Origin: Clostridia bacterium
GTDB lineage: Bacteria > Bacillota_A > Clostridia > Oscillospirales > Acutalibacteraceae
Length of the DNA stretch: 8,526 bases
Reading direction: 5' to 3'
NCBI GenBank assembly: GCA_024699005.1
Contig: JAILQN010000261.1
Coordinates: forward strand, 1-8,526
Below, in pieces: positions 176 to 8,526 of this stretch. Position 1 is the first letter of the stretch. Each line of letters begins with the position of its first letter. The translations under genes and the position numbers were made by a program. A model generated the notes under the pieces. The model was given only the letters and a program-made list of their open reading frames with translations. It did not search any database and was not told the origin of the DNA.

Positions 176-1795
176 ATGATGCGTAATCTAAAAAAAGTGT
201 TCGTTGTTCTGCTCGCAGTCTTGCTCATGACGACTGTCATCAGCGTGCCGGTTACTGCGGCTAACAGCGAATCGAAGGAGAGCTATACATTCTCCGAGCA
301 AGTTGAGCATAAGTTTTATCAGTTTGTTGATAAGCTGATATTTATGATCGGGAAGGTCCTGAATCTGCTTATTCCCGGCAAGGACTGGGCAGGGAAGATA
401 CCGAGCATAAAAAAATATGTTTCTGAACACTTTTACCCCGGTAAAGCGAAATTTGATACAGAGCCCAAGGAAGGCGCCGCATGGAGTATGGGCTTCGGCA
501 AAGAATCGTTCCTTACGAATATCGATCCGTATGACGGAAGCTATTATCTTGCCGGATCATTGGAGCCGTTTGACGGCAGAGTTCCGGCGGGCGTACTTGA
601 CGATCAGGGCGTGAACACTGTTGCGATCAGCGACGGTGACGTGACGATGACCTATTCCGCCATAGACGGTTTCGGCATAACCCGCGGCGACGTTATGGAG
701 ATCCGCAGCCGTCTTGAGAAGTTTGCAGAGGAAAACGGTATTATTTCTGTCAACGTTTCCGCGCTTCATCAGCACTCCTGTATCGATACTCTCGGTCTCG
801 GCGCTCCGATAGTCCCTGCGGTGCTGGTCAATCCTTTCGCGACCGTGTTCAAGGAAGACGCGATGATCAGGGGCCGCAACCCTGTCTTTATGGAGGAACT
901 TTACAAGGCCGTTGTAAATTCCGTAACAGAAGCTGTGGAGTCCATGTCGGCAGGATCGCTTTATTACGGCAAAGCAGACGTGAGCGATTATATCACCGAT
1001 AAACGCGATCCTCAGGCTTTCGACGGCAACATAGAGCGTCTTCGCTTCGTTCCGGATGACGGCGGGAATGAGATATGGGTCTGCGAAGCCGGCATACATC
1101 CCGTATCAGTCAGCTCATCATCCAGACTGCTTTCCTCGGATTTCCCGCATTACGTGGAGGAATACGTTAAAAATGAAACCGGCGCTGATCTGGTTTATAT
1201 CCAGGGCGCTGAGCTTGCCATAACGCGGAATACCGATCCCATGCATATAGATCCGGATGCGGACGATAAGGGCAGACTTGAAGCGATGGGCGCCGCTTAC
1301 GGATCCCGTCTGACCGGTATCGAAGAAGAGACCGAGCTTCAGCCTCTGCTTAACGTGACTCACCGCGAAATAACGGTGAAAGCCGAAAACCCGATACATA
1401 TCCTTGCGGGACGTGAAGGGCTTCTCGGCAGCGTTCTGGCGCGTGACGGACTCGATTACTGCGTCATTACGGAGCTTGGATACGTTGAACTCGGCGGTAA
1501 GCTCGGAATCGTGCTTGTGCCGGGAGAGATCGATCCCGCCATCCTCTGGGGCGGCGCCGTTTCCGCAAGCGCGAGCTGGAAAAATGAAAGCTGGGATTAC
1601 ACGCCCTGGGCCGAGACATGCGGTGCGGATACACTCATTTGTTTCGGTCTTTGCAACGACCAGATCGGATATATCCTCTGCGATAACGACGTGCGTTCCA
1701 TGCTGACTGAGAACGAAGAGGTCAATGCCGTTTCTACCAAATCCGGCAGCATACTCACAGAAGCGTTTGAGCAGCTTATCTCTGAGATCAAATGA
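176..1795 (+). CDS. Secreted neutral/alkaline ceramidase-like hydrolase
   Basis: This is a 539-residue exported protein resembling the N-terminal catalytic domain of neutral/alkaline (non-lysosomal) ceramidases, zinc amidases that split ceramide into sphingosine and fatty acid. A signal peptide is clear: basic MMRNLKK, a hydrophobic core, and a likely cut after VTA (residue 28). Likely metal-site motifs are H198-Q-H200-S, H308 in GIHPVS, E451 in VPGE, and Y499 in CNDQIGY, matching the His/His/Glu/Tyr zinc ligands known in the family. The usual GNxSPN-type nucleophile motif is not recognisable: the aligned stretch reads GAELAITRN (344-352), with Thr350 where the catalytic Ser is expected. The C-terminal Ig-like domain of full ceramidases is absent. 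ATG at 179 is an alternative start with 8 rather than 5 bases to the AGAGGA site. It is the first gene of the operon and overlaps the next by 4 bp. The fold assignment is fairly secure; the substrate is unknown and may not be ceramide. Confidence 0.8.
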   Translation: MMRNLKKVFVVLLAVLLMTTVISVPVTAANSESKESYTFSEQVEHKFYQFVDKLIFMIGKVLNLLIPGKDWAGKIPSIKKYVSEHFYPGKAKFDTEPKEGAAWSMGFGKESFLTNIDPYDGSYYLAGSLEPFDGRVPAGVLDDQGVNTVAISDGDVTMTYSAIDGFGITRGDVMEIRSRLEKFAEENGIISVNVSALHQHSCIDTLGLGAPIVPAVLVNPFATVFKEDAMIRGRNPVFMEELYKAVVNSVTEAVESMSAGSLYYGKADVSDYITDKRDPQAFDGNIERLRFVPDDGGNEIWVCEAGIHPVSVSSSSRLLSSDFPHYVEEYVKNETGADLVYIQGAELAITRNTDPMHIDPDADDKGRLEAMGAAYGSRLTGIEEETELQPLLNVTHREITVKAENPIHILAGREGLLGSVLARDGLDYCVITELGYVELGGKLGIVLVPGEIDPAILWGGAVSASASWKNESWDYTPWAETCGADTLICFGLCNDQIGYILCDNDVRSMLTENEEVNAVSTKSGSILTEAFEQLISEIK

Positions 1796-2361
1796 CCATA
1801 ATGAGAATCAGACCATACGAACCGAGAGACAGGGACGGTGTGCGCTTTGCATGTCTGAACAGTGAAGGCCCCTGTACCATGACTCCCGCCGAACAGCATT
1901 TTATACTCACCACATATTGCGATTACTATATTGAGCGTGAGCCGGAAAACTGTTTTGTCGCCGCAAACGAGGCAGACGAAGCGGTAGGTTATGTGATCTG
2001 TGCTGAAAATTATGACATCTTCTGGCAGGTATTCCGTAAGGAGTACCTGCCGCGTATCAGTGAATCTGAAAAGCATTTCCGTCAATCTGCGTCTTTGTCG
2101 ACAGTTCTGCAGGATAAGTATAAAGAATTCTATCCCGCACATCTGCATATCGATCTGCTTCCTGAATATCAGCGGCAGGGGGTCGGAAGCAAACTGGTCG
2201 ATGCACTTGCCTCGCATCTTCGTGATAAAGGCGTGCCCGGAGTAATGCTCACGGTGGGTTCTTCTAACTACGTGGGGCAAGGCTTTTACAATAAATACGG
2301 CTTCAATCTTCTGGAAAAGACGTCCGGCGACGTTGCATACGGGCTGAAGCTTACGGAATAA
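1792..2361 (+). CDS. GNAT-family acetyltransferase, similar to the O-GlcNAcase HAT-like domain
   Basis: This 189-residue protein belongs to the GNAT fold, which moves acetyl from acetyl-CoA to amines. The acetyl-CoA loop is visible as QRQGVGSKL (127-135), preceded by the strand HLHIDLLPEY (117-126). A typical GNAT C-terminal GFYNKYGF motif lies at 164-171. The long central insert and the HIDLLPEYQRQG signature are characteristic of bacterial proteins related to the C-terminal acetyltransferase-like domain of animal O-GlcNAcase; this link is from memory of the family and is supported by the GH84 gene two genes downstream. Unlike the human domain, the CoA loop looks intact, so catalysis is plausible. 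The start overlaps the preceding stop (ATGA), with no strong ribosome binding site, pointing to translational coupling; ATG at 1801 is an alternative start. The acetyl acceptor is unknown; glucosamine or an amino sugar would fit the neighbours. Confidence 0.85.
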   Translation: MTIMRIRPYEPRDRDGVRFACLNSEGPCTMTPAEQHFILTTYCDYYIEREPENCFVAANEADEAVGYVICAENYDIFWQVFRKEYLPRISESEKHFRQSASLSTVLQDKYKEFYPAHLHIDLLPEYQRQGVGSKLVDALASHLRDKGVPGVMLTVGSSNYVGQGFYNKYGFNLLEKTSGDVAYGLKLTE

Positions 2362-2366
2362 AGGAG
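2361..2366 (+). promoter_or_regulatory. Ribosome binding site of the kinase gene
   Basis: AAGGAG lies 6 bases before the ATG at 2373 and overlaps the last base of the GNAT stop codon. It fixes the kinase start and shows independent initiation within the operon. Confidence 0.85.
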
Positions 2367-2372
2367 TCTCTT

Positions 2373-3290
2373 ATGCGCTGTTATCTGGGTATAGACGGCG
2401 GCGGAAGCAAAACTTCCGCCGTTCTTTGCAGCGATTCATTGCAGGAATTATCTCGCTTTACCGGGAAAGATCTTAATTACAACGCAATCGGCATGGAAGC
2501 TGCGCGTGATAATCTGAGGGAGATCATCGACGGAATTCTGACTGAAACCGGTTTGCAGCCTGATGCTGTCTGCATTGGTCTGTCGGCGCTTTCCGACAGA
2601 GCTGATGAGATGCTTGTGCGGGAGTTCTGCGGCGGGATAGTCAGGTGTGATAAGATCCTGCTCGACAGCGACGTATTCATCGCTCTGGAGGCAATGGACA
2701 GCGACGGTCCCGCGGCTGTAGCTATCGCGGGTACCGGCTCCATGGCAGCCGGCAGACTTGCCGACGGCACAGTGCTCCATACGGGAGGATGGGGCCATCT
2801 TCTGGGTGACGAAGGATCGGGCTATGCTCTTGCGTCGGAGGCTGTCAAGGCTGCTGTACGCGGCGCTGAGGGAAGCGCACCGTATACCATGCTCACGGAA
2901 GCAATGCTTTCACATTTCGGAGCAAAGTCATTGGACGATCTGATCGGGATCTTTTACGATCCGCCGATAGAGCGCAGCCGGTTCGCATCCTTTGCTCCTT
3001 TCTTATTTGACTGTTATAGAAAAGGAGATGAAATGTCTGCCGGTATCGTCTCGCAACAGGCTTCAATGTTCGCCGACACAGTTCGCGCGCTGCTCAGGAA
3101 AATGCCCGTCGGAACGCCTCTTGGACTCTGGGGAGGCGTTTTTGAACATCAGGAATGTTATGCTGCCCTCTTTTCCGATGCGATCAGTTCGGAATTTCCG
3201 GAAACGAAGACGGGGCTGCTCAGAATGTCGCCTGTCCTGGGCGCCGTCCGCGCTGCGATGAAGTTTTATGAAGGAGAAGTGGCAGACTGA
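2373..3290 (+). CDS. N-acetylglucosamine kinase-like BadF/BadG family ATPase
   Basis: This 305-residue protein is an ASKHA-fold sugar kinase of the BadF/BadG/BcrA/BcrD family, closest in its motifs to eukaryotic-type N-acetylglucosamine kinase (ATP + GlcNAc to GlcNAc-6-phosphate). Motifs in order are phosphate-1 loop GIDGGGSKT (6-14), catalytic-region Asp in DSDVF (98-102), phosphate-2 loop IAGTGS (118-123), the sugar-site signature GGWGHLLGDEGSGY (138-151), and adenosine loop GLWGGVF (251-257). WGHxxGDEGS is shared with GlcNAc kinases. No signal peptide is present, so it is cytoplasmic. Length is slightly below that of human NAGK (about 340 residues). It follows the GNAT gene by 11 bases and its TGA overlaps the GH84 ATG by one base. 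Placement next to a GlcNAc-releasing glycosidase strongly favours GlcNAc as substrate; glucosamine or MurNAc remain possible. Confidence 0.88.
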   Translation: MRCYLGIDGGGSKTSAVLCSDSLQELSRFTGKDLNYNAIGMEAARDNLREIIDGILTETGLQPDAVCIGLSALSDRADEMLVREFCGGIVRCDKILLDSDVFIALEAMDSDGPAAVAIAGTGSMAAGRLADGTVLHTGGWGHLLGDEGSGYALASEAVKAAVRGAEGSAPYTMLTEAMLSHFGAKSLDDLIGIFYDPPIERSRFASFAPFLFDCYRKGDEMSAGIVSQQASMFADTVRALLRKMPVGTPLGLWGGVFEHQECYAALFSDAISSEFPETKTGLLRMSPVLGAVRAAMKFYEGEVAD

Positions 3291-4888
3291 TGATAATACC
3301 GAATGAAAACATTCCTTCCGGCGTTGAACTGTTTCCGGAGCTAATCGGGGAGGAAACCCCTGAAATCGAAATCTTTCGGGAGGACTCGTACAGAGTTTGT
3401 TATGACGAAACCGCTCACCGTGTTACGGACGAGCAGTTTATCCTTCAAGTAAGCAAAAACAACGGTAAACCGTTTGTTCGCGTCGTTTGTTCCGGTGAAA
3501 AAAGCGCGTTTTATGCGCTTGCAGAGACTTCATTGCGCGTCGAAGAGAACCGCCTTGAACCGGGTGAGTATACAGTCGCTCCGCGGTTTGCAGTTCGCGG
3601 TTATATAGAGGGCTTTTACGGGCCGCCCTGGACACATGAAAACAGGCTCTCCGTCCTTTCTCTTATGGCGTCATGCAGAATGAACACGGTTTATTACGCC
3701 CCGAAAGACGACGCTTATCATCGTGAAAAGTGGCGTGAACTTTATCCCGTTGATTCTTTACAGAGGCTCACAGAGTATGCAAAAGCCGCAGCTGAATATC
3801 ATATGGATTTCGTCTGGTGCGTCGCGCCCGGGCTATCGATTCGTTACAGCGATCCGGAAGATTTTCAGGTCCTTACAACAAAAACAAAACAGTTATATGA
3901 CGCCGGAATCCGTTCGTTCGGATTGCTGCTGGACGACATAAGCGACAGATTGACTGATCCGGAAGACATAAAGCGTTTCGGAGAACCTGTCAATGCTCAT
4001 ATCGATCTTATATGCAGATATCACGATGAACTTGAGTCGATGGCGCCGGGGTCAAAGCTCACTGTTTGTCCGACTCTCTATCATGGGACAGGAAACGAAT
4101 ACTATATCTCAAAACTCGGCAGAGAAATCCCGCCCGGTGTGAGTCTGTTCTGGACAGGCAGAGATATCTGCTCACGCGAGCTCACGTGCCGGGAAGCCAC
4201 GCAGTTTTTCGATGGCACACGCCATAAACCGCTGTACTGGGATAATTATCCTGTCAACGATATGGCTATGCGCCGTGAAATGCACTTGGGTCCGCTGATC
4301 GGACGCGATCCCGAGCTATGGCGATACGCGGAAGGTATCATAGTCAACTGTATGGAATATGCAGAATGTTCCAAGATACCGCTTATCACCGCGGCGGAGT
4401 ATATGTGGCAGGGTGAGAAATACGATGCGGAATCTTCCTGGAGCCGTGCTGTCCGTCAGGTGATCGGTGAAGAGTATGCTGATGCGTTTATTACCTTTGC
4501 TGAACATATGCGTGTTTCATGTCTTATGGATGATAATTCTCCGCTGTTGAAAAAGACGTTCGCCTATATCGGGCGTGCGCTTGACGGTGGGAGAGAAGAA
4601 GAAGCAGAATCGCTTGCCGTCGATTATCTTGAAAGAATGGAATACGCCCTGACTTTTTTGAAACGCGATCTGCCCATATGCCGGGAACTTGCGCCGTGGT
4701 CATGCAAATTTGAGCTGCTGTGCGGACTTATGCCTTTGGTGTTCGGCGATATGCGCTCTCCGGACGAAAGCCGTGCAAAAGAGTTACAGGAAAAAGCGGA
4801 AGCTTACGCATCCGTACCGTGGCGGCTTGCTGAGGAAATGGATCTTTTAGAAGCTGCGGAAGGCGGCTACAGGGTATACAAACCCTGA
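3290..4888 (+). CDS. GH84 beta-N-acetylglucosaminidase (O-GlcNAcase family)
   Basis: This 532-residue glycosidase of family GH84 removes terminal beta-linked GlcNAc by substrate-assisted catalysis through an oxazoline intermediate. Residues 1-95 form the family's N-terminal alpha/beta domain. The barrel starts with RGYIEGFYGPPW (103-114), followed by YYAPKDD (135-141) and the catalytic Asp pair in GLLLDDI (D215, D216). Sugar-site motifs FWTGRDICS (287-295) and WDNYPVND (317-324) follow. Residues from about 380 are predicted helical, like the stalk region after the barrel in other GH84 enzymes. There is no signal peptide, carbohydrate module or sorting signal, unlike the large secreted clostridial GH84 proteins, so it should act in the cytoplasm. 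It starts one base into the kinase stop (TGATG); AAGGAG at 3271-3276 is rather distant (13 bases), so coupling is likely. It is the last gene of the operon. Family assignment is very secure; the natural substrate is unknown. Confidence 0.95.
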   Translation: MIIPNENIPSGVELFPELIGEETPEIEIFREDSYRVCYDETAHRVTDEQFILQVSKNNGKPFVRVVCSGEKSAFYALAETSLRVEENRLEPGEYTVAPRFAVRGYIEGFYGPPWTHENRLSVLSLMASCRMNTVYYAPKDDAYHREKWRELYPVDSLQRLTEYAKAAAEYHMDFVWCVAPGLSIRYSDPEDFQVLTTKTKQLYDAGIRSFGLLLDDISDRLTDPEDIKRFGEPVNAHIDLICRYHDELESMAPGSKLTVCPTLYHGTGNEYYISKLGREIPPGVSLFWTGRDICSRELTCREATQFFDGTRHKPLYWDNYPVNDMAMRREMHLGPLIGRDPELWRYAEGIIVNCMEYAECSKIPLITAAEYMWQGEKYDAESSWSRAVRQVIGEEYADAFITFAEHMRVSCLMDDNSPLLKKTFAYIGRALDGGREEEAESLAVDYLERMEYALTFLKRDLPICRELAPWSCKFELLCGLMPLVFGDMRSPDESRAKELQEKAEAYASVPWRLAEEMDLLEAAEGGYRVYKP

Positions 4889-4985: not shown

Positions 4986-6173
4986 TTACGCGGCTTCAGA
5001 AAGAGAACTTTCGGTGCCGGGCAAACCGGTTTTCTGCACGCCTTCTCCGTAGATAGTCTTCCAGTCTTTTGCCATGGAGATCGCAGTCCACGACTGCTTT
5101 TCGACTTCTTCATAAAACTCGGAAGCCTTTTCCTCGCTGCCGTATTCACGCTCGGTATCGTCGCATACTATAAAAAAGCCCATGCCTGCGTGATCCGGAT
5201 TGCCTTCGGCATAGTTGAGCATTGAGAAATCTCCCGAGCTGTTCCCGAAAGCCAGAACGGGTCTTTTGCCGATCTCGCGGGCAATAGCGGCGGATTTTCC
5301 GGATTTTGCGCATTCCACTTCGTCCAGAGGCGCTCCGAGGAGTATGCTTTCGTCGCTGTCCATGTTATAATTGTCGGCGATATCATCGCCCAGTTCGGAC
5401 GTATAATATGGTACGTCCGTAGCTATCACATGGTCGTAAGGGATATCAAAGCGTTCCACAAGCGCGCGGACGACCTCGCGTTCACACGCGGAAACCATCC
5501 ATACGTCGAAGTCATTGGCGCGAAGGTAATCGATGACCTCGATCATAGGTTTATAGAACGACTGGCCGTAGGTCATTCCGGAAAAGCCCACAACTTCGTT
5601 GTTATCGGCAAAGTTTACCGTATACGCGCGGAACTCCTCGGGAGTCATACCGGCAAACGCGGATGCCACGAGGTCGTCTTTAGTGATACCTTCCGGTTTG
5701 AACGTTTCACCGTATGTATACGCGTGATCCCGTACCTGCTGCATGGCGCTGCGTTCTTCATCGGTCGCTTCGTATGACGGATCATCAAGCACTCTGTACA
5801 TTGTCAAACAGTAATCTATATAGACAGGCGCTTTTTCACAGAGGATAGTACCGTCCATGTCAAAGACCGCAATACGGTCGGCCGGCTCTAAATAGCCGCT
5901 GCTTTTTTTATCCGTGGTATCCGATACGAACGATACAAGTTCACGGAGCGATTCACTGTCCGGATTCCATGAGGGGTAGGTCTCGGTATAGTTCAATTCT
6001 TCGCCCGAACCTGAAGATAACTGAGTTGACTCTGCTGTCTTTTTTGTCGAATCTTCGCGTGATTTACGGAACGACAGATTCCCTTTAATTGCAAAGATTA
6101 TTACCACAGTTATCACTACGCCTGCCAGGAACGCCAGGACCGTAAATAATCTGTTTTTTGCTTTTTCATTCAT
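4986..6173 (-). CDS. Membrane-anchored HAD-superfamily phosphatase
   Basis: This 395-residue protein has one N-terminal membrane segment (about residues 9-29), then a polar Ser/Thr-rich linker to about residue 65, and a HAD phosphatase domain. HAD motifs are motif I FDMDGT (D105 nucleophile, D107 acid/base), motif II VSAC (S228), a candidate motif III Lys at 290 or 293, and motif IV AFGNSSGDFSML (D315). The pattern FDxDGTxxxExP followed by KPMIEVIDYLRAN resembles exported phosphoserine-phosphatase-like HAD enzymes such as phosphorylcholine phosphatase. The anchor and linker put the catalytic domain outside the membrane if the N-terminus is inside, as MNEKAKNR suggests. The start is well set by CCTCCT (6183-6188; AGGAGG on the coding strand), 9 bases from the ATG. 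It converges on the operon, so co-transcription is excluded. The fold is secure; the substrate is not known. Confidence 0.9.
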   Translation of the reverse strand: MNEKAKNRLFTVLAFLAGVVITVVIIFAIKGNLSFRKSREDSTKKTAESTQLSSGSGEELNYTETYPSWNPDSESLRELVSFVSDTTDKKSSGYLEPADRIAVFDMDGTILCEKAPVYIDYCLTMYRVLDDPSYEATDEERSAMQQVRDHAYTYGETFKPEGITKDDLVASAFAGMTPEEFRAYTVNFADNNEVVGFSGMTYGQSFYKPMIEVIDYLRANDFDVWMVSACEREVVRALVERFDIPYDHVIATDVPYYTSELGDDIADNYNMDSDESILLGAPLDEVECAKSGKSAAIAREIGKRPVLAFGNSSGDFSMLNYAEGNPDHAGMGFFIVCDDTEREYGSEEKASEFYEEVEKQSWTAISMAKDWKTIYGEGVQKTGLPGTESSLSEAA

Positions 6174-6210: not shown

Positions 6211-6310
6211 TTATCGGTTCTTGGTTAGTAAACAGACTGTTTCGACATGCCTTAGGACAATAGCGTGAATAAAATGCCGTTATCAACGCTGTTGTCACGA
6301 TCACCCTTGT
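6211..6310 (-). repeat. Repeat copy A (RlmD/TrmA tail-like, frameshifted)
   Basis: This copy of the window's dispersed repeat lies between the TPR-like gene and the phosphatase. On the - strand it reads GATAACGGCATTTTATTCAC, then the segment encoding HVETVCLLTKNR and a TAA (6211-6213). Copies B and C have one more T in the T run; without it the frame here breaks before HVET, so A is a decayed copy. AGCGT (6262-6266) and ACGCT (6286-6290) can pair. It resembles the C-terminus of RlmD/TrmA-type RNA uracil methyltransferases; no methyltransferase body is present. Confidence 0.7.
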
Positions 6311-6362
6311 GGCTTAGTTCTCATCATCTAAAACGGTCGAGGCAACAGCATTGATGATTCCT

Positions 6363-7037
6363 TTACAGTTTTACTGTTTTCAAAAAAGCAGCGCACTCGG
6401 GTGTGTTTTTCAAACTGTCTTTGACTTTGTGCGTGTCCAGGATTCCTTGAATCCTGCTTACAATATTTGGCGTACTTAAGCGAATTGCTTTTTCATATGC
6501 TGCTGCCGCTTCATTTCGCATCCCTTTCCACGAAAAAATCACGAACTCCGCGACAGCAATACGAAATTCGTTGTTGATGAAGGCTTTTTCAAAATCATCA
6601 ATTTCTGAGAATAACGCATAATACTTCTCAAGTTGTTCGGAGTATTTGAAGTCATCTACATGCAAGAGCATCCACATCAAAATTCCTGATATTGTACGTT
6701 GATACGAGATTTGATCTTTGTTCAAAATATCTGCTGCCTTCCGATACACTTCATATGCAGCAGGGTAATTTTTGCAGCGCTCGTGGATCATGCCTATGTT
6801 GTAATAGGCAGAATAAGTCGGAAACCAAGTATCAGGGAATTTCTCTAAAGCCCATTGTATCAGGTCGATTCCTTCTTGTGACCGCTTGATCGGAAACTGA
6901 ACGGCAGTGGTGTAGCAGTGTTGAAGACGAAGGAAATTACCCCGGACTCGTTTTAAGAGTGTTTCATACTCAGCGTAGGCCTCTTTGGGCATTCCTTCTT
7001 TGATGAGTTTCTTCTCATATGCTTCAATCTTCGTCAC
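6363..7037 (-). CDS. TPR-like helical protein of unknown function
   Basis: This 224-residue soluble, mostly helical protein has no signal peptide or membrane segment. One canonical tetratricopeptide repeat is visible at about 71-104 (YYNIGMIHERCKNYPAAYEV lies inside it), with a weaker unit around 53-70 (GIDLIQWALEKFPDTW) and a TPR-like end at 178-190 (AAAAYEKAIRL). Such repeats mediate protein-protein contacts. The start is GTG at 7037, preceded by an excellent ribosome binding site (GGGAGGTGA) 7 bases away. It is more AT-rich than the operon genes and is flanked by repeat copies A and B, which suggests an acquired accessory gene. It could be an immunity or adaptor protein, but nothing in the sequence proves this. 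The family was not recognised. Confidence 0.8.
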   Translation of the reverse strand: MTKIEAYEKKLIKEGMPKEAYAEYETLLKRVRGNFLRLQHCYTTAVQFPIKRSQEGIDLIQWALEKFPDTWFPTYSAYYNIGMIHERCKNYPAAYEVYRKAADILNKDQISYQRTISGILMWMLLHVDDFKYSEQLEKYYALFSEIDDFEKAFINNEFRIAVAEFVIFSWKGMRNEAAAAYEKAIRLSTPNIVSRIQGILDTHKVKDSLKNTPECAAFLKTVKL

Positions 7038-7041
7038 AGTT

Positions 7042-7050
7042 TCACCTCCC
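7042..7050 (-). promoter_or_regulatory. Ribosome binding site deciding the GTG start of the TPR-like gene
   Basis: TCACCTCCC on the + strand reads GGGAGGTGA on the coding strand, a near-perfect anti-16S match with 7 bases from GGAGG to the GTG at 7037. There is no competing in-frame ATG nearby, so the GTG start is well supported. Confidence 0.85.
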
Positions 7051-7065
7051 TCATTTACATCTAAT

Positions 7066-7168
7066 CTGTAGTCACGACCCGGCTCGAGACATCAATACGA
7101 CTGATTCGACGTGCATTGAGACGATGGCGTGAATAAAAAAGCACATATTCACGCTGTAGTCACGACCC
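7066..7168. repeat. 15-bp direct repeat flanking repeat copy B
   Basis: CTGTAGTCACGACCC occurs exactly at 7066-7080 and 7154-7168, 88 bp apart. The right-hand copy is an internal part of repeat B. The left-hand copy sits beyond the stop codon of B's peptide frame, just before the ribosome binding site of the TPR-like gene. An exact repeat of an internal repeat segment at a gene junction looks like a trace of recombination between repeat copies. Confidence 0.85.
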
Positions 7169-7194
7169 TCGACGTAAGGAATATGCCGTTGACC
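7072..7194 (-). repeat. Repeat copy B (RlmD/TrmA tail-like)
   Basis: This is a well-kept repeat copy in the gap between the SF0329-like and TPR-like genes. On the - strand it starts GGTCAACGGCATATTCCT, as copy C does, and stays in frame through FIHAIVSMHVESVVLMSR to a TGA at 7074-7072. It carries a perfect 9-bp hairpin, GCGTGAATA (7127-7135) with TATTCACGC (7146-7154), loop 10 bases. No start codon with a ribosome binding site is seen, so it is annotated as a repeat rather than a gene. Confidence 0.8.
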
Positions 7195-7201
7195 GGTTGC
7201 G

Positions 7202-7261
7202 TCAGGGCACCCGGATCGGTTTCACAACTGATTCAACGCGCACTGGACAACGGGATTGATC
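7202..7261 (-). repeat. Partial, diverged repeat copy B'
   Basis: The + strand segment from 7225 (CAACTGATTCAACGCGCA) matches copy B from 7098 (CGACTGATTCGACGTGCA) at a 127-bp offset. On the - strand it encodes CPVRVESVVKPIRVP before a TGA (7204-7202), aligning with HVESVV of copy B. It ends 7 bases before copy B begins, so the two are tandem. The upstream half of the repeat is not recognisable here. The remaining 75 bases to the SF0329-like stop hold nothing identified. Confidence 0.55.
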
Positions 7262-7336
7262 AGCTATCCGTAAAGCCGGAACCGCCGTATTGCCGGTCTG
7301 AAGGAAAAAAGTCACTCAACAAATCGGGAATTATCT

Positions 7337-7855
7337 TCAATTTATCTTTTCTCCGATGCACCGGATCTTATAAATTTGCTGAAGCCAATCCGGTTGATTT
7401 AAAAATGCATCCTTGAGAGAAGCAAGTTTCCTTTTTCCCAAGCGTCTGTCCATTAATGCAAACATTCTCTCCAGCGGATTATCAGAAATGACACTATCGC
7501 CGATACTTTGATTTCTGTATCCGGCGAGAGCTTCGCAGAATTCGACATCCGTATATTCCGTCCTGGCGGAAATGGGAAAGTGATCAAGAGTTTCCAAATA
7601 CCCCGTCCAATACTCAGCGATTCCGTACGGGTTATCGTTGTCTTTGTAACCGTTTTTCAAGAAATAAGTATTGACCGTTTCATGAGAAAAACGCTTTATG
7701 AGATGATCGTCAATATGCAGTTCAAAGACGCGATCTCCATCCATACCTACATATGCAGTACAGTTATAACGAACCCGACCGCGGAGACAGTCAGCCAGCA
7801 TTTCTTTTTCAAGATATCTTCTCATACCGCTCCATGAGCCCATAATACTACTCAT
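7337..7855 (-). CDS. SF0329-family-like protein of unknown function
   Basis: This 172-residue soluble protein resembles the uncharacterised SF0329 family. Supporting features are the N-terminal SWSGMRRYLEKEMLADCL (7-24), GRVRYNCTAY (26-35), and the C-terminal block NPLERMFALMDRRLGKRKL (126-144) followed by QPDWLQQIYKIR (154-165), which are the conserved stretches I associate with this family. There is no signal peptide or membrane segment. The ATG at 7855 overlaps the stop of a 20-residue upstream ORF (ATGA), with only a weak GAGG nearby, so its translation is probably coupled to that ORF. ATG at 7843 (MGSWSGM) is an alternative start. It sits between repeat copies B/B' and C, like the other accessory genes. 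No biochemical role is known to me; the family name is from memory, not a search. Confidence 0.8.
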   Translation of the reverse strand: MSSIMGSWSGMRRYLEKEMLADCLRGRVRYNCTAYVGMDGDRVFELHIDDHLIKRFSHETVNTYFLKNGYKDNDNPYGIAEYWTGYLETLDHFPISARTEYTDVEFCEALAGYRNQSIGDSVISDNPLERMFALMDRRLGKRKLASLKDAFLNQPDWLQQIYKIRCIGEKIN

Positions 7856-7914
7856 TCAGCTGCCTCGTCGATTACTGTTTTTCCATTTGCCTTTTTTATT
7901 GACTTTTCATTCAT
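7852..7914 (-). CDS. 20-residue leader ORF coupled to the SF0329-like gene
   Basis: The ORF reads MNEKSIKKANGKTVIDEAAE and stops in a TGA that overlaps the next gene's ATG by 4 bp (ATGA). It has a better ribosome binding site (AAAGGA, 6 bases from its ATG) than the gene it precedes. It is lysine-rich at the start and acidic at the end. It may be a true leader that delivers ribosomes to the downstream gene, or the cut-off end of an older gene left by cassette exchange. It does not resemble a family I recognise. Confidence 0.5.
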   Translation of the reverse strand: MNEKSIKKANGKTVIDEAAE

Positions 7915-7920
7915 ACTTTA

Positions 7921-7926
7921 TCCTTT
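7921..7926 (-). promoter_or_regulatory. Ribosome binding site of the leader ORF
   Basis: AAAGGA on the coding strand lies 6 bases before the leader ATG at 7914 and directly beside the outer arm of the palindromic element (7929). RNA folding of that element could therefore affect access to this site. Confidence 0.6.
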
Positions 7927-7928
7927 AT

Positions 7929-8024
7929 GCGATATGTTTTCGCTTCGCTCATACGCGATATGATATGAATTCCTTACTCGTCCCGCAGGGACATATCGCG
8001 AATTCCGTCAGAAATTCATATCGC
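7929..8024. repeat. Nested palindromic element, possibly a small mobile (MITE- or REP-like) repeat
   Basis: Four copies of one 8-mer form nested inverted repeats: GCGATATG at 7929-7936 and 7955-7962, and its complement CATATCGC at 7992-7999 and 8017-8024. The inner pair extends to 9 bp (7954-7962 with 7992-8000). An alternative 10-bp stem pairs GATATGAATT (7962-7971) with AATTCATATC (8013-8022). In the centre lies a tight hairpin, GTCCC-gca-GGGAC (7980-7992), and GAATTC occurs twice (7967-7972, 8000-8005). It lies in the 5' region of the leader ORF and SF0329-like gene, directly after copy C in the sense of transcription. There is no coding frame of note apart from the last codons of copy C's frame. 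It may be a non-autonomous mobile element or an RNA structure that controls the downstream gene. Confidence 0.75.
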
Positions 8025-8136
8025 TTCGAGACAGCAGAACGACCGTCTCGACATGCCTCGGGACAATGGCGTGAATAAAAACGCCGTTATCTACGCTGCC
8101 CACACAACCCTCGGCGTCAGGAATATGCCGTTGACC
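8025..8136 (-). repeat. Repeat copy C (RlmD/TrmA tail-like, open frame)
   Basis: On the - strand this copy starts GGTCAACGGCATATTCCT just 11 bases after the DUF5071-like stop. It stays in frame through FIHAIVPRHVETVVLLSR; the frame runs on into the palindromic element, adding SDMNF and a TGA (8010-8008). The open frame can be traced back to a TTG at 8154, giving 48 residues, but there is no convincing start signal. GGCGT (8068-8072) and ACGCC (8081-8085) form a hairpin. The HVETVVLLSR ending is what RlmD/TrmA-type methyltransferases commonly carry at their C-terminus. Confidence 0.8.
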
Positions 8137-8147
8137 AATCTTCCTAA

Positions 8148-8526
8148 TCAGCAATTATAGTTTGCTTGTCTGCTTTCAAATTCTTTCAACCACACAAGCC
8201 ACATTTCGTCCTGATCCTTTTCCGCTCTGAACTTACTGTATTTCAACGTTTCCTCGGTCAGAGCCTTTGGCATTTTAGCAAGACGGTCGAGTATAATCTC
8301 AGACACGGGCCAATTCAAATCCTGCAGCCACTCAAAAAGTGAATAAAGATATGGCGTCAATTCCTCGTCGGATCTGTCCGCAATGACTTTTGCACATGGC
8401 TCCCACACAGACTTGCTTTTCCCGTTTGGAAGAATCGGCTGCAAGAACGGAAATAAGTATTTCACTCCTTTTGCAAGCTCAAGTCCTTGCTGTTCCCGCT
8501 GACTGTATTCTTCTGGAGTATAGGTG
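8148..8526 (-). CDS. DUF5071-like protein, 5' end outside the window
   Basis: The frame is open from the right window edge to a TGA at 8150-8148, so at least 125 residues are encoded and the start is missing. The core LFEWLQDLNWPVSEIILDRL matches the pattern I associate with DUF5071 proteins (a WLQDxNWPV signature followed by helices). Near the C-terminus EDMW-like residues appear as DEMWLVWLKEF. GTG at 8465 is not a convincing start: the purine-rich AAAAGGAG overlaps it, leaving no spacing, and the frame continues upstream through TPEEYSQREQQGLELAKG. No signal peptide or membrane segment is visible in the part seen. Function is unknown; small helical proteins of this sort often occur in accessory gene arrays. 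It is followed closely by repeat copy C. Confidence 0.75.
   Translation of the reverse strand, partial: TYTPEEYSQREQQGLELAKGVKYLFPFLQPILPNGKSKSVWEPCAKVIADRSDEELTPYLYSLFEWLQDLNWPVSEIILDRLAKMPKALTEETLKYSKFRAEKDQDEMWLVWLKEFESRQANYNC

Follow-up and report, generated by a model that had tools for sequence, protein, structure and literature searches.

The window analysed here is positions 1 to 8,526 of contig JAILQN010000261.1 from a Clostridia bacterium, assembly GCA_024699005.1. From position 6211 on, it carries small genes on the minus strand that are separated by copies of one repeat. This arrangement is very probably a tandem array of mobile cassettes, most with a single gene, that is anchored at the 3' end of rumA/rlmD, and rumA is expected to lie beyond position 8526. 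The product of rumA/rlmD is a 23S rRNA m5U methyltransferase (RumA/RlmD). Each repeat is a site in which a segment of 85-100 bp, containing a hairpin, precedes a copy of the final rumA/rlmD codons in frame (for example, HVETVVLLSR...stop). The system is judged to be integron-like but not an integron. Support for it is read from sequences: the anatomy of the sites, their in-frame tails, their place behind rumA, a displaced protein domain, a cassette swap at one locus, and cassettes shared between distant hosts.

The original prediction described three genes in one orientation with a repeat copy in each gap. These are present, as sites A, B and C together with a decayed fourth copy, B'. Unseen at that stage were the rumA 3' end that closes each repeat and the position of the sites behind genes, and the observation is larger than first noted. 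The prediction also proposed a cassette array in which genes are swapped by recombination between repeats. Exchange holds up in comparisons among genomes, but repeat-to-repeat recombination alone appears not to describe it: units are inserted at the rumA 3' end, and the target is part of the repeat.

Anatomy and distribution of the sites

A total of 67 sites were found in 46 loci (35 genomes and the window), distributed patchily among Clostridia and their relatives. Genomes and loci are given handles beginning with G and L. The tails are peptides of the same kind as the C-terminus of RumA, which reads HVETVVLMTKK in L034 (this rumA scores 423 bits with TIGR00479, cut-off 183.55). Tails were scored at more than 5 bits with a profile of the C-termini of 27 other rumA loci from the family of G230 (18 distinct peptides), and the 6 of 67 sites that could not be anchored by their hairpin block were excluded. 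A rumA-like tail occurs in the predicted frame at 49 of the 61 anchored sites and at none of the 61 in either of the other two frames. Five further anchored sites have the tail peptide one codon later.

The copy of the tail starts at CAYGT, which supplies the codons His-Val. The joint lies in or beside this motif, with the host or cassette half on its left and the tail on its right. Most sites carry the block TTTTTATTCACGCTATTGTCCCAAGG before CAYGT. The cassette-borne half was sorted by us into at least three types with 33, 8 and 8 sites, and five sites are unassigned. Type 3 has a different hairpin stem at the position of the block. These 54 usable sites remained after 10 of 66 had been dropped for want of a match to the regular expression for selecting sites, and two more as near-duplicates; columns 0-2 and 7-8 are fixed by that expression.

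The hairpin palindrome is centred at -26, where its score is 0.516 compared to a mean of 0.254 (standard deviation 0.066) over all centres. A second, weaker palindrome (0.395) is centred on the CA of GCAYGT. Covariation in the hairpin amounts to 36 doubly changed paired cells, against a mean of 21.5 and a maximum of 33 in 1000 shuffles and 6-25 in slid controls, although it may reflect few events since the sites are related. Three sites are truncated (L247 8959-9031 and L255 9505-9552, both turned, and L129 5338-5400) and have mainly the CAYGT-adjacent block left, hinting that the distal hairpin arm may be dispensable.

Sites typically follow genes. An open reading frame (ORF) of at least 60 amino acids (aa) on the same strand ends no more than 400 bp upstream of 59 of the 67 sites, with a median gap of 58 bp; for random positions in these loci, the corresponding figure is 1590 of 4600. 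Neighbouring sites are 641 to 3048 bp apart (median 1004, n = 21), and the arrays are tandem rows of small cassettes in a single orientation, as in integrons.

Searches for the repeat beyond the window returned copies in other genomes, contrary to the possibility that it occurs only here. A degenerate 28-nt core pattern with 21 fixed bases matches 12 contigs from 12 different genomes among 84,980 species, where about 0.1 matches would be expected by chance according to our own arithmetic. These records are named as Clostridia, Lachnospiraceae, Oscillospiraceae, Ruminococcaceae and one Solobacterium, and seven of the 12 state ruminant gut as their source. The pattern matches no viral contig, and site C has no match at E 0.01 in plasmid and phage collections.

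Covariance-model searches, whose counts include the genomes on which they were centred, find sites in 12 of 245 genomes in the order of G012, in 17 of 396 in the order of G009 (some weak) and in 11 of 392 in the order of G005. In the last group only G005 itself gives a strong match; three of the weak genomes were checked, and two have no site by nhmmer and one falls under the later cut-off. Across the phylum, two of 398 genomes match, one of them the centre genome. A BLAST search of the family of G003 (200 genomes) with a single site returns G003 itself and four short matches to the core only. The sites are thus spread patchily, with concentrations in some groups. A number of loci lie inside contigs longer than 100 kb, so misbinned scraps do not explain it.

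Position behind rumA and exchange of cassettes

Among the 28 loci that could be judged, that is, those with at least 2.5 kb of sequence upstream, 19 have rumA 0.4-3.4 kb upstream of the first site. The remaining 18 of the 46 loci are at contig ends: the contig starts less than 2.5 kb ahead of the first site, with no rumA in view. Perhaps these breaks result from array variation within the sampled populations. A separate case is L197 (G473), where the C-terminus of rumA is unusual and another rumA-like tail lies 475 bases downstream, with no site found by profile.

Two sister species of one genus, G287 and G340, carry different cassettes at the same locus. Their flanking gene is 99% identical, and from GGCATGTTGAGAC onward (tail HVETVVLLRRKTHQN) their right flanks agree at all but one of about 240 aligned bases. 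Left of this joint, the two differ: there is a TPR cassette and a type 2 site in one, a GNAT cassette and a type 1 site in the other. Over the final 1000 bases ahead of the tail, the two rumA genes share about 90% identity, and their C-termini differ (HVEVVTLITRA and HVETVVLMSRAGS). In a third genome of this genus, G456, rumA ends in HVETVVLMAKKYTHLNLRR, a sequence that somewhat resembles the displaced tail, and no site is present within 315 bases behind this gene.

A displaced domain is found in G722. Some relatives have rumA fused to a C-terminal ASCH domain, as seen by Pfam in L182 and by alignment in L183. In G722 (L250), the rumA body ends in HVETVVLMTKE and is followed by ORFs of 573 and 149 aa. 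An ASCH domain that starts with HVEPVALLRRE lies behind a site, 3.4 kb past the rumA body. This segment aligns with the L183 rumA-ASCH protein from residue 443, the His of HVET, at 60.6% identity over 132 aa, and the G722 rumA body covers the L183 protein up to the same HVET motif. Insertion at the HV codons would displace the ASCH domain in just this way. The L183 protein is a distant relative, since the two rumA bodies are 36% identical. Another locus of G722, L253, has no site by nhmmer.

Cassettes are also shared between distant hosts. G001 and G340, whose RumA proteins share 37% identity, have a 129-aa cassette in common at 95.3% DNA identity. The GNAT cassette of G003 is 94.7-96.0% identical to those in three genomes (RumA 39-43%), and two pairs of DUF2716 cassettes are 92.0% and 86.7% identical (RumA 41% and 39%). 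Taken together, the six pairs have DNA identities of 86.7-96.0% compared to 37-43% for RumA, although the two pairs with G006 and G010 set a 450-aa protein against a 380-aa RumA paralogue, so that kinship is understated there. Homology between cassettes mostly starts and stops at or near sites, the GNAT gene of G598 being an exception.

Units of the window recur in the same manner, with other neighbours in each case. The unit of sites A and B with the TPR gene between them matches two contig ends of G287 at 90% and 81%, and the TPR gene portion of this unit has an 88% match in G754. For the DUF5071 gene together with site C, matches are found in G794 (89%) and G754 (81%). A search with the TPR protein finds 97 proteins at E 1e-20, including the query, and some 40 of these are at least 78% identical. 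Neighbouring genes differ among relatives, as the G287/G340 pair and the shared cassettes demonstrate, and a fixed gene order everywhere is not found.

Site-specific insertion at the HV codons of rumA is shown by three findings: the G287/G340 flanks, the ASCH domain of G722 and the cassettes shared across distant hosts. A unit would consist of a gene and then a recombination site, composed of the hairpin half followed by the copy of the rumA 3' end. A cassette, presumably circular, would recombine its own site with the CAYGT of rumA. The rumA body would be kept and its C-terminus replaced by the copy borne on the cassette, so that the reading frame is preserved. What had been the C-terminus would come to lie beyond the newly inserted cassette. 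Given the likeness between the right half of the cassette site and that of rumA, each reaction would recreate an intact rumA end and a new site, and could be repeated. Repeated rounds would yield the order rumA-cassette-site-cassette-site, with growth at the rumA end and the original host tail behind the last site. A site-specific recombinase would act in trans, our best guess being that it comes from another element or from the host.

Several observations weigh against a mobile array anchored at rumA. No recombinase that goes with the sites was found in searches of the carriers and loci. The window itself does not reach rumA, and nine of the 28 judgeable loci have no rumA by the motif test, two of them with a serine-recombinase element in its place. 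Seven of the 61 anchored sites have no tail that is recognisable by profile scoring. In G754, the TPR and DUF5071 genes occur with no recognised site between them, and in G598 another gene stands between the GNAT gene and the site. Furthermore, no excision was observed.

The array in the window and its cargo

On the minus strand, from high to low coordinates, the order is DUF5071, site C, SF0329, B', site B, TPR, site A and a HAD phosphatase. All repeat copies have one orientation and each lies just 3' of a minus-strand gene. The first cassette gene encodes a DUF5071 protein (8148..8525; PF16804, 49.1 bits) and is open at the window end. Site C (8008-8140) follows, with a type 1 cassette-borne half defined by alignment (8056..8140) and a translated rumA-like 3' end (8008..8055; HVETVVLLSRSDMNF and a stop). 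By profile match, it starts 14 bp past the stop codon.

The second cassette gene (7337..7855) encodes a 172-aa protein of the SF0329 family (PF25753, 118.9 bits; NF049912, 112.4 bits, cut-off 60). Two site copies adjoin behind it without an intervening gene. B' (7202-7330, from alignment rows) is the decayed fourth copy and has the tail RVESVVKPIRVP and a stop, as judged by eye. Site B (7072-7198) begins 145 bp past the SF0329 stop codon by profile match, with B' in between, and consists of a type 1 half with a hairpin (7114..7198, alignment) and the rumA-like 3' end HVESVVLMSRAGS and a stop (7072..7113, translation). Over 111 nt, sites B and C share 78% identity.

The third gene encodes a TPR protein of 224 aa (6363..7037; Pfam TPR_2). 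Site A (6211-6345) starts 43 bp past its stop codon by profile match. It has a type 2 half with the hairpin arms GACAATAGCGT/ACGCTGTTGTC (6250..6345, alignment) and ends in HVETVCLLTKNR and a stop (6211..6249, translation), a rumA-like displaced 3' end. A 40-nt core occurs three times in the window at spacings of 864 and 942 bp. Beyond site A is the HAD phosphatase gene (4986..6173, minus strand; Pfam HAD, 52.5 bits), which is probably the chromosomal side of the array.

Two further features of the window lie on the plus strand. A 539-aa ORF (176-1795), whose product is perhaps secreted, has no Pfam match at E 0.1. It is followed by an operon-like row of GNAT, BadF-type kinase and NAGidase genes (1792-4888), possibly for amino-sugar salvage. 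Rfam yields two weak matches, both under the gathering score.

Cargo across the arrays is mixed. Of 30 cassette or array ORFs scanned, 15 have a Pfam match at E 0.001, some of them under the Pfam cut-off, and 15 have none. Matches include GNAT acetyltransferases, a nucleotidyltransferase, a kinase like chloramphenicol phosphotransferase, a methyltransferase, a LigT-like protein, 23S_rRNA_IVP, DUF2716, DUF4304 and others. In four proteins of this kind scanned with NCBIfam, resemblances to drug-modifying enzymes score under the cut-offs. The suggestion that the window genes might be orphan immunity or defence genes is not supported. PADLOC finds no match for the three genes, the related arrays have mixed cargo, and a defence role is not indicated. 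Among ten proteins tried, PADLOC matches two, of 476 aa in L128 and 273 aa in L036. The L128 protein is located between rumA and a site (6884-9706) together with a SUKH protein and a protein with a GHH-type nuclease domain, and its match is a weak one to HEC-07.

Alternative explanations and known systems

Elements with serine integrases are the most serious competitor. In PMC4701971 and PMC5704250, rumA is described as a target of integrative and conjugative elements (ICEs) and integrative and mobilizable elements (IMEs) with serine integrases. The cassettes could be minimal cis-mobilizable remnants that rumA-specific large serine recombinases of such elements move in trans, an explanation we consider unlikely. 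A simple motif scan does find large serine recombinases in two array loci (L031 10597-12336 and L247 11087-12817), and these genes have a rumA tail as their own 3' end, as described for rumA-targeting ICEs in PMC4701971, and are on the upstream side of the cassette sites. They look like separate insertions. Judged by eye, their joint falls inside GAGACRGT, which is a few bases to the 3' side of the CAYGT joint, and their half-site is unlike the cassette half. The L031 recombinase is unmatched at E 1e-10 in seven of the first 12 carrier genomes, which are incomplete metagenome-assembled genomes (MAGs). In addition, the right half of the cassette sites is rumA-like, and a reaction between cassette and rumA is unlike one between attP and attB. 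No element with both an integrase and a cassette-type half-site occurs among the loci fetched, and the window has no serine integrase, in line with the earlier remark that no integrase is visible there. In G001, the rumA body continues into a foreign C-terminal segment.

The matches listed gave 30 loci, of which 28 were tried, and 22 tyrosine recombinases were recovered from these. Twenty of the 22 belong to two Xer-like clusters that are taken to be housekeeping. In a single case, a phage-type tyrosine integrase (L255 of G702, 1407-2753) has a GNAT gene and a truncated site close by.

Following DNA uptake, homologous recombination among repeats and among rumA genes would do without a dedicated recombinase. 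Long near-identical stretches among site copies would permit such shuffling within an array. On first insertion into an unrelated rumA, only some 25 bp would be common, yet the joints are at the same codons, and this route is decidedly improbable.

It is more doubtful still that the arrays are true integrons, or remnants of the kind called clusters of attC sites lacking integron integrases (CALINs), with attC sites recombined by IntI. The layout of short genes, each followed by a hairpin site, in arrays with mixed cargo corresponds. Of the 16 sites of types 2 and 3, 12 have an inverted copy of the core at -93 to -98. The best inverted match averages 5.37 of 8 over 54 sites compared to 5.05 for the null (single-site standard deviation 0.71), and an inverted copy of a site's own core scores at least 6 of 8 in 20 of 54 sites, where about 22% would be expected. 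This excess derives from types 2 and 3, however, the 33 type 1 sites being at 5.15. Neither strand folds better, and the platform is the coding end of rumA. TIGR02249 (IntI) is over its cut-off in none of 22 carriers, which are MAGs and may be incomplete, and in none of 14 control genomes either, so that the search has no positive control. Finally, ordinary dispersed repeats or transcription terminators (repetitive extragenic palindromic, or like miniature inverted-repeat transposable elements) would account for a hairpin 3' of genes, but are scarcely credible given in-frame rumA tails, a displaced ASCH domain, cassette exchange at one locus and, instead of scattered unrelated positions, linkage to rumA in 19 of 28 judgeable loci.

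The cassette system anchored at rumA can be compared to several known systems. It shares a target gene with the rumA-specific ICEs and IMEs, and the joints are a few bases apart; integration in rumA is found in the related arrays, rumA being outside the window. According to PMC4701971 and PMC5704250, those elements are long and have their own integrase gene, which exchanges its 3' part with rumA. In contrast, the units here are small, have no recombinase and carry another half-site. As described in PMC5704250, cis-mobilizable elements (CIMEs) are ICEs or IMEs that have lost the genes for integration and transfer and kept attL and attR, and in tandem accretion, as here, integrase-less units pile up at one attachment site. 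Unlike CIMEs, the arrays have neighbouring sites 0.64-3.05 kb apart and units that recur in unrelated hosts. Acinetobacter dif (pdif) modules are likewise site-flanked genes whose recombinase is encoded elsewhere. However, their sites serve XerC/XerD, and the cassette core has no likeness to the dif consensus when compared by eye.

A further parallel is with integrons, the standard example of bacteria collecting genes singly. Integrons and CALINs have small genes with one hairpin site 3' of each, in tandem arrays with mixed cargo that includes acetyltransferases and uncharacterised proteins. The arrays described here work like integron arrays, but no IntI passes the cut-off in the search of 22 carriers without positive control, no preferred folded strand is supported, and the arrays are built on the 3' coding end of rumA, with each site restoring its C-terminus. 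Searches of open-access PMC text, judged by listed titles and the opening lines of abstracts, turned up no account of arrays like these. The chances seem about even that they represent integron-independent cassette capture, in which a putative recombinase of their own uses a conserved codon pair of rumA, with the target restored by every insertion and open to reuse. If true, families and orders of gut Clostridia have a gene pool in common. Its contents could be read out by searching for the RumA C-terminal peptide in frame behind a hairpin and away from rumA, and the missing recombinase becomes a defined, testable target. Gut Clostridia very probably have an array comparable to that of integrons, on a different platform whose target gene is repaired at each insertion.

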